Assembly: GCF_039542385.1 (NCBI RefSeq)
Contig: NZ_BAABIA010000003.1
Coordinates: forward strand, 620,001 to 684,000
DNA length: 64,000 nucleotides
Source of the DNA: Prosthecobacter algae
Lineage (GTDB): Bacteria; Verrucomicrobiota; Verrucomicrobiia; Verrucomicrobiales; Verrucomicrobiaceae
Direction: 5' to 3'
The notes under the pieces are model-generated. The model did not search any database. It worked only from the letters and a program-made list of their open reading frames with translations, and was not told the origin of the DNA. Numbering within the stretch: position 1 is the stretch's first letter; each line of letters begins with the position of its first letter. This document shows positions 10,754 to 15,155 of this stretch, one piece after another. Both the position numbers and the translations under genes were made by a program.

Positions 10754-11761
10754 ATGACCTCCCCTCGCTCAGGCATTCTGGCCGCTGGCAACTTCATCGT
10801 GGATTACGTGAAGATTGTGGATCACTACCCCCAGCAGGACATGCTGGCCAGCATCCTGGGCGAGTCGCAGGCCAATGGCGGTGGGCCTTACAATGTGCTC
10901 AAAGACCTCACTGCCATGCGGGCGGGCTTTCCTCTGGTCGCTTGCGGCCTGGTGGGAGACGATGCCAATGGCCGCTGGATCCGCAGCGATTGTGAAGCTC
11001 ACGGCATTGATACCGCACAACTGCACAGCACGGCTCAACGCTCCACCTCTTACACCGATGCGATGACGGTGCAGAGCACCGGACGTCGCACCTTTTTCCA
11101 TCAGCGTGGGGCCAATGCGCTCTTTGCTCCCAGCCACTGTGACTGTACACAGTCCAACGCCAAGATCCTACACCTGGGTTACCTCATGCTGCTGGATCAC
11201 ATGGATAGCTTTGCGGAAGATGGCCGCACCCATGCCGCCCATCTGCTCGCCCTGGCCCAGCAAGCAGGCTTAGAAACCAGCGTGGACATGGTCAGCACGG
11301 AGAACCCCCAGTTCCGCGAAATCGCCCTCAGCGCCCTACCCTTTACGGACCATCTCATCATCAATGAGATCGAAGCTTCCCGTGTGCTCACCCGCACCCT
11401 CCCCGCCGATGACTTCCCTGCCCTCCTCGCCGCCGCGCAGGAGATCCTTCAGCTCGGTGTTAAACAGAGCGTCACCATCCATGTCGAGCACGGTGCCGCT
11501 GCCTGCACCCATGCTGGGGAAACCCACATCCAGCCCTCGCTGAACCTGCCAGCAGGTTACAGCCAGGGTGCCACCGGCGCAGGCGATGCCTTTGCCGCCG
11601 GTCTCCTCTACGGCCTCCACGAAGGTTACTCGCTGGCGGAGCGCCTCCGCCTCGCCGTCTGCACCGCCGCCGCCTCGCTCTCGCATCCCACACCTTCTGG
11701 CGGCATGAAACCTGTCGCCGAATGCTTGGCCCTCACGGGCCGTTTTGAGTTCCGATTTTAG
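10754..11761 (+). CDS. PfkB-family carbohydrate kinase
   Basis: This 335-aa ribokinase-like protein starts with an N-terminal lid and substrate region (GNFIVDYVKIVDHYP, NGGGPYNV). It ends with the PfkB signature GATGAGDAFAAGLLYGL near residue 275, which carries the catalytic Asp and anion hole. It probably phosphorylates the keto-sugar so that the upstream aldolase can cleave it. It is the last gene of the operon. A short palindrome without a T-run (TACCTTT/AAAGGTA, 11765-11780) follows the stop. Confidence 0.87.
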   Translation: MTSPRSGILAAGNFIVDYVKIVDHYPQQDMLASILGESQANGGGPYNVLKDLTAMRAGFPLVACGLVGDDANGRWIRSDCEAHGIDTAQLHSTAQRSTSYTDAMTVQSTGRRTFFHQRGANALFAPSHCDCTQSNAKILHLGYLMLLDHMDSFAEDGRTHAAHLLALAQQAGLETSVDMVSTENPQFREIALSALPFTDHLIINEIEASRVLTRTLPADDFPALLAAAQEILQLGVKQSVTIHVEHGAAACTHAGETHIQPSLNLPAGYSQGATGAGDAFAAGLLYGLHEGYSLAERLRLAVCTAAASLSHPTPSGGMKPVAECLALTGRFEFRF

Positions 11762-11858
11762 AGATACCTTTCCAAAGGTAAATCACTACGGTCTTTCATC
11801 CAAAGCTCCCACCGTACCCTAAGCCTAACAGGCGTTCTTGCACGCTGCCCCGGTCCCC

Positions 11859-12092
11859 AAGCCCAAAGGGCTTCTGTCCCCTAGCCCAGGGTTGGCACAA
11901 CCCTGGGTAAATCGACCCCACGCCCCCCTCAGCGCCCAACCCCAACGGGGTTGTGTCGGTCATACGACCGCCCCCTCAACATCCACGTCCACCAACAGAA
12001 CCCCGTTGGGGTTCATCCTCCGATGTAGCCGCGTCTTCCTATTTCCCAGGGTTGTTCCAACCCTGGGCTAAATTCCGCGAGCCCGTTGGGCT
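11859..12092. repeat. Mirror-symmetric cluster of six palindromes (REP/BIME-like)
   Basis: The 398-base gap between the kinase and the GntR gene holds six short palindromes. A (11859-11873) has arms AAGCCC/GGGCTT. B (11885-11907) has arms CCCAGGGTTG/CAACCCTGGG. C (11937-11953) has arms CAACCCC/GGGGTTG. C' (11998-12014) has arms GAACCCC/GGGGTTC. B' (12045-12067) has the same arms as B. A' (12080-12092) has arms AGCCC/GGGCT. The gaps are 11 and 29 bases on the left and 30 and 12 on the right. B' and C' match the reverse complements of B and C with their flanks. The whole is one inverted repeat of two three-hairpin units, like paired REP elements. No gene is seen in this gap. Confidence 0.85.
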
Positions 12093-12159
12093 TGGAATCA
12101 CAAAGCCATCCCAAAAATTAATCCCCTGATAAACTCAGCACCACAACCACGTTCTAACA

Positions 12160-12888
12160 ATGGTCAGACCACCTGATCACCCTGCCATGATCCTCGACAC
12201 CATCGCCCGCCCGCCTTCCCTGGTGGAAAAAGTCTGTCAAAGCCTGGCTACCATCGCGCGGCGGGATGTGGCGGAGGATGAAAACTGGTTACCGACGGAG
12301 CGCGAACTTGCGGTTCAACTGGGCGTAAGCCGCAGCGTGGTGCGCGAGGCGACGAAACGGCTGGAGCAGCAGGGCCTGCTGGAGATCCGCCAGGGCTTGG
12401 GCATCCGCACCGTCAATCACTTGCATAAGCCCCTCACGGGCGCGCTGGAACTGCTGGTGCCCGATGCCACGGAACGGCTGCGCCAGCTCATCGAAGTCCG
12501 CCTCATGGTCGAGCCTGAAAACGCCCGCCTGGCAGCGGAACGTGCGACACCAAAACAGGTGAAAACCCTCCGAGCCGTTCATGAAAAGCTGGCCCTGGCC
12601 ACCACTTTTGAAGACTCCGTCATGGCCGACATGGAATTTCATCGCACGCTGGCCGTGCTTTCGGGAAATCAGATTGCCGGGCTCCTCATGCACTCGCTTT
12701 CAGATCTCCTGCAGGCAAGCCTAAAACATGGTTACCAGCGCGTCACCCCCGCCACCGCCATCCGCCAGCACGCCGCCGTGGTGAAAGCCATCGAGCAAGG
12801 CGACAGCGCTGCCGCAGCCCGTGCCATGCATAAGCATCTCATCACCGCCCGTGAAGACCTCGGCCTGAATGGATCCCCTACTGCCTAA
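12160..12888 (+). CDS. FadR/GntR-family transcriptional regulator
   Basis: This 242-aa regulator has an N-terminal winged helix of GntR type (ENWLPTERELAVQLGVSRSV, then REATKRLEQQGLLEIRQGLG). A C-terminal all-helical FCD ligand domain (about 95-230) shows the RLMVEPENARLAAERAT helix and the metal-site region MADMEFHRTLA. Starts at 12160 or 12187 are both possible and neither has a Shine-Dalgarno. The stop is 2 bases before the DUF1501 gene, so the regulator is probably co-transcribed with it and controls the locus. FCD regulators usually sense small organic acids. Confidence 0.88.
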   Translation: MVRPPDHPAMILDTIARPPSLVEKVCQSLATIARRDVAEDENWLPTERELAVQLGVSRSVVREATKRLEQQGLLEIRQGLGIRTVNHLHKPLTGALELLVPDATERLRQLIEVRLMVEPENARLAAERATPKQVKTLRAVHEKLALATTFEDSVMADMEFHRTLAVLSGNQIAGLLMHSLSDLLQASLKHGYQRVTPATAIRQHAAVVKAIEQGDSAAAARAMHKHLITAREDLGLNGSPTA

Positions 12889-14455: not shown

Positions 14456-14794
14456 CTAGTCCACCAGCCAAGGTCGTCGTTCATGACGGACCTGCAAAAG
14501 TGTTAGATGCTGACGGCCTTCATCCAGCACGTAAAGCAAACGCCAACCTGGCTTGGATTTCCAGGGGACGAATCGCATCTGACGCAGTTCCAGATGGGGC
14601 TGCCAGCGGCCATTCTCAGGGGCAAAGCCGTGCCGCTCAGGGTGCTGATTCAGTTTTGACAAGGCTGTTTCCAGCTTGCCTAACCAGCGATCTGCTAAGT
14701 CTGATCCACCGCGCTGCTCATCCTCTTCATACCAGCGCATCTGGTCTTCGATGCAGCGCACCGCATCAGGCGCGAGGTGCAGTTTCCAGCTCAT
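14456..14794 (-). CDS. RelE/ParE-family toxin
   Basis: This 112-aa basic protein has the RelE/ParE fold pattern: an N-terminal strand (WKLHLAPDAVRCIEDQMRWY), a helical hairpin, then strands ending RFVPWKSKPGWRLLYVLDEG and LTLLQVRHERRPWLVD. Such toxins act on gyrase or on ribosome-bound mRNA, and the sequence alone does not decide which. It overlaps its antitoxin by ATGA. It is antisense to the surrounding DUF1501/cytochrome locus. Confidence 0.8.
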   Translation of the reverse strand: MSWKLHLAPDAVRCIEDQMRWYEEDEQRGGSDLADRWLGKLETALSKLNQHPERHGFAPENGRWQPHLELRQMRFVPWKSKPGWRLLYVLDEGRQHLTLLQVRHERRPWLVD

Positions 14795-15099
14795 GGGGCA
14801 GGCTGGCGGCGTGTGGCAGCGCGACTGCGGATGCCCTCAAAAGCCTGGCTGGCGGGCTGGGTGGGGCGGCCTTTGGCGTAGTCGTTCAGCGCGGCCTGCA
14901 GGCGCACATCCAGGCGATGTTCCTCCGCCTCATGGGACAATGCCTCAAAGGCGACGACCGACATCACCACCACTGCAGCTTTGCCATTGTGGGTCAGCAC
15001 GCGAGGGCGGTGGTTTTTAGCCAGCGCGCGGGTGTGCTTCCGCGTGTTTCGCGAAAAGTCCGTGAGGCTCACCACATCGTCTTTCAAGGAAATATCCAT
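14791..15099 (-). CDS. Phd/YefM-family antitoxin
   Basis: This protein of about 102 aa carries the Phd/YefM signature near its N-terminus: SLTDFSRNTRKHTRAL, then HRPRVLTHNGKAAVVVMSVVAFEAL. The C-terminal half is charged and flexible. The start at 15099 (MDISLKDD) is preferred to 15141, because the extra residues are unlike the family and a GAGG lies just upstream. It should bind and neutralise the ParE-like toxin with which it overlaps, and repress their shared promoter. That promoter must lie in the 56-base gap before the cytochrome gene at 15156. Confidence 0.82.
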   Translation of the reverse strand: MDISLKDDVVSLTDFSRNTRKHTRALAKNHRPRVLTHNGKAAVVVMSVVAFEALSHEAEEHRLDVRLQAALNDYAKGRPTQPASQAFEGIRSRAATRRQPAP

Positions 15100-15155
15100 A
15101 ACCTCAACTAAACACATGATTATGTGTTTGGCAATTCCCACTCTCCAACTCCTTC

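Follow-up and report, generated by a model that had tools for sequence, protein, structure and literature searches.

Known members of the IS200/IS605 family have one subterminal hairpin per end, and the IS200-type members carry TnpA alone. Members of the family insert 3' to a short target without duplicating it, by way of a single-stranded circular intermediate. REPINs are paired REP sequences mobilized by a RAYT, which is a class 2 TnpA_REP. The passages on ends in one study describe IS605-type elements as having no terminal inverted repeats. They also present the PATEs of Haloquadratum, IS605-type kin that are too short for a transposase, have palindromes near their ends and have no terminal inverted repeats (PMC3119063). 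The TnpA-Y1 transposases of subclass 1.2 are characterized, in the sections of a survey devoted to them, as generally without terminal IS200 structures, low in copy number and found mostly in Cyanobacteria and Bacteroidetes (Quentin et al. 2018, PMC6006769). TIRtrons are described in the text and legends of their source as tyrosine transposase (TIRYT) genes with long inverted repeats, some of them self-complementary, and with dispersed copies. Their proteins are RAYT-like, some have a GGGGWSAS motif and some have double palindromic TIRs (Di Nocera et al. 2013, PMC3733652).

The locus studied here lies in a window of 64,000 nt (G000:C3:620001-684000) from a 6.1-Mb genome of the Verrucomicrobiota, G000. 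An earlier note on this DNA had described six palindromes of three types in the mirror order A-B-C-C'-B'-A' at 11859-12092, with spacings of 11/29 on the left and 30/12 on the right. Coordinates and shuffles bear out this layout. All six palindromes have a loop of 3, and five have arms of at least 6 bp. The features, in window positions, are as follows.

10754-11761, forward strand: host gene for a PfkB-family kinase, flanking the element; it adjoins the empty site in G046 and G013
11856-11961, forward strand: left end unit A-B-C, 94.5 bits with the unit model R1 and itself among the 51 units used to build that model
11859-11873, forward strand: hairpin A, outer, left end, perfect 6-bp arms, loop 3
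11885-11907, forward strand: hairpin B, left end, CCCAGGGTTG...CAACCCTGGG, 10-bp arms, loop 3
11937-11953, forward strand: hairpin C, inner, left end, 7-bp arms, loop 3, followed by GTC
11954-11997, no strand: 44-nt spacer from C to C', the position of the transposase gene in intact relatives
11990-12096, reverse strand: right end unit C'-B'-A', 92.3 bits with R1 and also among the 51 model-building units
11998-12014, reverse strand: hairpin C', inner, right end, 7-bp arms, loop 3
12045-12067, reverse strand: hairpin B', right end, 10-bp arms, loop 3
12045-12093, forward strand: weak match of Rfam RF01687 (Acido-Lenti-1 RNA) on B'-A', 25.3 bits against a gathering score of 37, E 0.0031
12080-12092, reverse strand: hairpin A', outer, right end, imperfect, 5-bp arms, loop 3
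12160-12888, forward strand: host gene for a GntR/FCD regulator, flanking the element and conserved in G016, G046, and G013

The five loop-3 palindromes with arms of at least 6 bp compare with a maximum of three in 5000 dinucleotide shuffles (reached in 2 shuffles) and of two in any other 235-nt stretch of the window. As had been noted from the letters, the reverse complement of the right half matches the left half, in inverted repeats of 29 nt (93% complementary), 23 nt (91%) and 16 nt (94%). Folding as single-stranded DNA gave -73.2 kcal/mol for the element versus -33.5 (sd 3.0) for 200 shuffles. The element DNA had no match at E<=1e-5 in the phage and plasmid collections. Elsewhere in the window, the reverse strand at 14456-15141 holds a gene pair for a ParE-type toxin (PF05016, 24.0 bits, barely above the cut-off of 23) and a Phd/YefM-type antitoxin (PF02604, 37.9 bits).

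By the terms of the earlier note, its proposal would fall if the element were unique in its genome, which it is not. BLAST against its own genome found related sequence on contigs C7, C12, and C9, and the three longest matches cover everything between the outer edges of A and A' (query positions 36-40 to 275 of 311). Copies were then counted with R1, a covariance model of the 109-nt A-B-C unit. For this model, 148 contexts of the B hairpin were reduced to 58 oriented units and then to 50 with loop-3 A and C; the left unit of the window was put into the set by its coordinates and the right unit was added, giving 51. At E<=0.001, R1 has 16 matches in the genome under study and at least one in 56 of the 68 family genomes. 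Thirteen of the own-genome matches reach 50 bits or more; the window holds two of them, C7 seven, C12 two, and C9 and C4 one each.

In the 51 units, 98.2% of the stem cells are paired, and none of 500 shuffles was as high. This value is inflated by selection because the units were picked for palindromes at A and C, and kinship inflates the counts. Picking does leave the variety of the stem sequences unaccounted for: two-sided stem changes occur at 10 of the 24 pairs, in 91 cells. Outside the stems, 50 of 51 units have AG before hairpin B, 46 have GTC after hairpin C, and 24 have GTC after hairpin A. A likeness to CGTC-tagged REPs, which have stems of 8-9 bp, loops of 4-5 nt and CGTC at one end, was considered and dropped because the sizes differ, with arms of 5-10 bp and loops of 3 here, so the GTC after C is a resemblance only. 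Two side observations concern other repeats. The C9 copy (L063 1880-2113) and the decayed C4 copy (L064 1611-1850, R1 50.1 bits) share, by eye, about 150 nt past hairpin A, which are perhaps part of another repeat. The right flank of the C7 array (L061 3570-3880) contains short stretches that are present several times in G016, G046, and G013; these are probably another repeat family.

On C7, the units enclose a gene for a 151-aa protein, P0001 (C7:56079-56531), with a whole A-B-C-C'-B'-A' on either side. Homologous genes in related genomes have the same ends. The 15 close loci, which are 62-100% identical with duplicates left out, include nine (L078, L081, L082, L083, L085, L086, L087, L088, L171) in which all six palindromes are perfect and the order is A-B-C-[tnpA]-C'-B'-A'. 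One or two palindromes are not perfect in L079, L080, and L084; L165 has an extra unit, and further units adjoin tnpA on the left in the genome under study (L061) and in G016 (L077). The usual positions relative to the start codon are -130 for A, -103 for B and -50 for C, and past the stop codon they are +31 for C', +80 for B' and +114 for A'. From A to A', the intact element is about 712 bp in G026, G041, and G037. Since the gene of the nine relatives sits between C and C', the pair in the window is best read as the two transposon ends without the gene: its ends are the same as those of the autonomous element, and the gene is missing. It is highly probable that the window element is a non-autonomous, MITE-like copy of a Y1 HUH transposon of the single-strand type.

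The C7 protein matches PF01797 with 71.9 bits and has HVH at residues 56-58 and YIEGQEEHH at 116-124, which is a Y---Q--HH motif. An alignment of 31 homologues shows no variation at residues H56, H58, Y116, Q120, H123, and H124, and D145, E146, and W150 at the C-terminus are invariant in 29 aligned rows. The protein scores 49.1 bits with the IS200/IS605 model NF033573, just under its cut-off of 55, and 18.6 bits with REP_Tyr_transpos, for which the cut-off is 80. Its AlphaFold model (mean pLDDT 86.3) has ISDra2, IS608, and other IS200-type TnpA as its nearest folds, and the RAYT structure 4er8 comes only at rank 30. Judged from its sequence, the C7 transposase is IS200-like and belongs to subclass 1.2, not to RAYT/TnpA_REP.

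This classification bears on the proposal in the earlier note that the paired three-hairpin units are moved by a RAYT, with no such transposase in the window. The absence holds for the whole Y1 family: PF01797 has nine matches in the genome, all off contig C3, five of them Y---Q--HH genes and four Y---NP (RAYT-type) genes. A true REPIN would agree with an inverted palindromic unit pair that is intergenic and present in several copies, and the search for a RAYT gene did find the four Y---NP genes. However, R1 found no unit at any of these four loci (L069, L070, L071, L072; C1:283230, C10, C7:327939, C14), whereas units enclose the Y---Q--HH gene on C7. Strong matches lie at this gene and on C9, C12, and C4, and weaker ones (21-33 bits) lie beside the Y---Q--HH genes on C5 and C6; the C1 and C2 genes of this type have no R1 match beside them. 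Among 107 homologous genes, 103 have Y---Q--HH and none has Y---NP. In none of the 51 units does the tetranucleotide GT[AG]G stand directly at the 5' foot of a hairpin (A, B, and C, both strands), and two units have it within 4 nt after B. The gene here also sits between two units, unlike in a REPIN. RAYT/REPIN membership was rejected on the Y motif, the GTAG foot and the association, and we regard a true REPIN as extremely unlikely. What survives of the proposal is a large inverted repeat made up of two three-hairpin units, repeated in the genome and linked to a Y1 HUH transposase; because the inverted pair is repeated and a Y1 transposase lies elsewhere in the genome, the element is REPIN-like in kind.

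Inverted ends were also found well beyond the close relatives. The flanks of subclass-1.2 genes were surveyed at 109 loci, after 11 records had been removed as duplicates (L186 being a presumed duplicate); two partial genes were dropped to give 107, of which 106 had long enough flanks. When the left flank was compared with the reverse complement of the right, the median score was 92 versus 21 for shuffles (maximum 30), and 86 of the 106 loci scored above every shuffle. A direct, non-inverted comparison had a median of 29, yet 48 loci pass the same threshold because palindromes match directly too. The remaining 20 of the 106 loci, including the close orthologue of G016, are not above shuffles in the inverted comparison, and the C7 locus is barely above them (34 versus 30) because extra units adjoin the gene. 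In the 81 of 106 loci with an inverted flank score above 40, the repeats have medians of about 117 nt and 80% identity. The left repeat of these 81 holds three hairpins in 39 loci, two in 20, four in 10, one in 10, five in one, and none in one, so at least one hairpin is present in 80; in a control with one shuffle per locus, 76 of 81 have zero to two. The stem sequences vary widely among loci (e.g., L181, L182, L307). A Persicobacter (Bacteroidota) plasmid gene, 41% identical, has similar inverted ends with a score of 66 versus a shuffle maximum of 33. The Bernardetia ends (L279) also score as inverted, 96 versus 47, but they are AT-rich with weak hairpins.

Comparison of the same sites between species shows units present in some genomes and absent from others. 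At the window site, the two host genes are 398 nt apart here, and in both G046 and G013 the gap is a few tens of nt; G016 is no test of this site because its kinase flank differs. Where G016 and G000 have about 44 nt upstream of an argC-like gene, G046 has about 281 nt, which include a solo A-B-C unit. Downstream of argJ, a unit is present in G000 (on C9) and in G016 and absent in G013 and G046. R1 had no match in the six loci standing for empty sites (L137, L138, L270-L273). The insert edges at the three occupied and empty sites are too inexact to define a target site or a cleavage site, with no exact edge found; the insert in the window is longer than its palindromic core, with about 95 nt extra at the left end and some 30 nt extra at the right. 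As a separate observation, the region upstream of the GntR gene, where the window holds the element, has another palindrome in G016 (L136; GCATCACTC...GAGTGAT), and two similar copies of it were seen by eye.

The arrays also take part in larger changes. The intact element of about 712 bp is inverted in place in G026 relative to G041 and G037, and the break points of the inversion fall in the A-B inverted repeat. In G016, a tnpA encoding a 96% identical protein has an ArgJ gene on one side and a DUF1501 gene on the other (Pfam assignments). The G000 counterparts of these two neighbors are split between contigs (C9, L063 and C12, L062), each beside units, and tnpA is on C7. Since ArgJ and DUF1501 are joined at the array in G016 (L208) and split in G000, arrays coincide with a rearrangement, whose break points are at the units. 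The copies on C9 and C12 seem to be what is left of a single ancestral array that was broken up in this way, and not independent insertions. At the sensitivity used, most of the 15 close loci have unrelated flanks; the exceptions are three loci sharing one site and matches of 67-70% to a gene beside the G016 copy. Taken from sequence comparison, unrelated flanks across species are weak evidence of movement.

These events fit a process in which the units spread chiefly by homologous recombination and gene conversion, with TnpA as a domesticated passenger. The rearrangement between G000 and G016 and the inversion at the repeats agree with it, as do the one or two close tnpA per genome among the matches listed, and related domesticated TnpA are reported in another study (PMC8266576). 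Such a process is compatible with a gene-less transposon copy. As the chief means of spread it is unlikely, since occupied and empty intergenic sites with conserved flanks, and the inverted ends retained around tnpA at many loci, are hard to explain by recombination. Two genomes rated 99% complete, G017 and G046, have 20 and 8 unit matches, but their best tnpA homologues are 48% and 46% identical, so that neither has a close tnpA; their units are perhaps orphans, or perhaps mobilized by a divergent TnpA.

The weak RF01687 match on B'-A' raises a different explanation, in which the element is a transcribed structured RNA (a small RNA, a 3' mRNA stabilizer or a terminator) kept for its RNA function. 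A table of one study lists Acido-Lenti-1 as a probable RNA of Acidobacteria and Lentisphaerae (Weinberg et al. 2010, PMC2864571), and part of a 2026 study places it beside the protease genes of Tannerella forsythia, with a function that is little known (PMC13298647). The passages on the motif in these two studies do not tie it to a transposase.

RF01687 was scanned both around transposase genes and across genomes. Around the transposase genes, both element ends pass the gathering score in L182, from a Planctomyces relative, and in L307, from the same order as the window genome. Persicobacter (35.7) and another Planctomyces relative (33.2 and 32.9) come close to that score without reaching it; the same scan gave no match at E<=0.1 in any of 12 close loci. 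The surroundings of 60 subclass-1.2 genes (96 kb) hold 66 matches at E<=0.01, spread over 31 loci. The gathering score is reached by 25 of these matches, in 18 of the 60 loci. Within 150 nt of the gene ends, 36 matches point outward versus 7 inward, with both ends matched in 10 loci, and farther away 9 point outward versus 14 inward. No match was found in 18 control loci around the GntR gene (63 kb), a set taken from genomes of the same genus and unmatched genome by genome to the 60 loci. In the scan of the phylum at E<=0.001, 108 of 387 genomes have RF01687, 70 of them over the cut-off, and 14 control genomes have none. A Y1 gene lies within 1.5 kb of only 2 of the 30 best-per-genome RF01687 loci versus 0 of 27 control loci, which implies that most of those copies are gene-less, so the association with tnpA rests on the scan around tnpA genes. 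Outward pairs with no gene found nearby occur at L292 and L304. In L280 (1501-2456), four copies of equal score are in direct orientation, three of them at a 115-nt period. We infer that RF01687 copies are transposon ends, also beyond the genomes scanned.

For the window element, an RNA function has in its favor the catalogued status of RF01687, the position just downstream of a gene, and the two-sided stem changes, which suit RNA as well as single-stranded DNA. However, the element has no terminator-like U-tract. Terminator-like sites are confined to 11724-11742, within the kinase gene, leaving an intrinsic terminator unsupported as the main role. Presence and absence at the same site between species, hairpins that are near-perfect on both strands with both orientations side by side, and the mostly outward RF01687 matches near transposase gene ends also argue against an element kept for its RNA. 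We consider this explanation very unlikely, and the transposon ends may have a secondary RNA role.

In the reading as a gene-less transposon copy, each end is an array of three hairpins, about 110 nt long, and the two ends are inverted repeats. The hairpins, folded in single-stranded DNA and perhaps at the replication fork, would be recognized by the TnpA encoded on C7, which would cut near the outer foot of A via Y116. This TnpA would then move both kinds of copy, intact and gene-less, by way of a single-stranded intermediate, like the TnpA of IS608 and ISDra2, with the gene-less copies presumably mobilized in trans. Such ends, being inverted repeats of palindromes, are equivalent on the two strands, and the strand asymmetry of IS200/IS605 would need a replacement.

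A broader proposal, which we give an even chance of being right, is that subclass-1.2 TnpA drive widespread and so far unrecognized single-strand transposons with symmetric inverted three-hairpin ends. Acido-Lenti-1 would then be the outer two hairpins of those ends and not an RNA gene, including the copies at the Tannerella forsythia proteases. These findings name a candidate for the DNA substrate of a transposase subclass described as being without terminal structures, make it likely that this subclass serves a mobile element, and propose a concrete explanation for an Rfam family whose function is not known. They also point to an HUH transposase system with symmetric inverted ends, for which the asymmetric mechanism of IS608 and ISDra2 is no obvious fit, and advise caution to annotators who take Acido-Lenti-1 matches as regulatory RNAs.

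Triple-hairpin inverted ends are named in none of the literature search results, drawn from a library with few subscription journals. With IS200/IS605 elements such as IS608 and ISDra2, the system shares a Y1 HUH transposase with Y---Q (below the NF033573 cut-off), the nearest folds, and hairpins near both ends; it differs in having three hairpins per end and ends that are inverted repeats of about 110 nt, the inverted repeats being found at 86 of 106 loci. With TnpA-Y1 subclass 1.2, it shares Y---Q--HH, the conserved C-terminus and the low copy number. Unlike that subclass as described, the genes here are from Verrucomicrobiota, Planctomycetota, and one Bacteroidota plasmid, and have inverted multi-hairpin ends, with three hairpins in 39 of the 81 strongest loci and at least one in 80.

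Compared with a REPIN or REPtron and its RAYT, the inverted palindromic unit pair, repeated in the genome, and units that outnumber the close transposase gene are the same, whereas the transposase class is another, the GT[AG]G foot is missing, each unit has three hairpins and the gene is between the units. The relatives here resemble TIRtrons in having a Y1 transposase gene between long inverted repeats. They differ in that the protein is not class 2, while that of TIRtrons is RAYT-like, a distinction that follows the text and legends of the TIRtron source; the two groups may overlap. Like a PATE, the window element is too short for a transposase, has palindromes near its ends and is related to the IS605 type, but it has terminal inverted repeats. 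Two hairpins of RF01687 match B'-A' of the relatives' ends, partly above the gathering score, in contrast to its catalogue entry as a probable RNA and to the window copy at 25.3 bits against the cut-off of 37. The most fitting reading of the window element is a copy of a subclass-1.2 TnpA transposon that has the inverted triple-hairpin ends and lacks the gene, a new form within the IS200/REPIN/TIRtron group.
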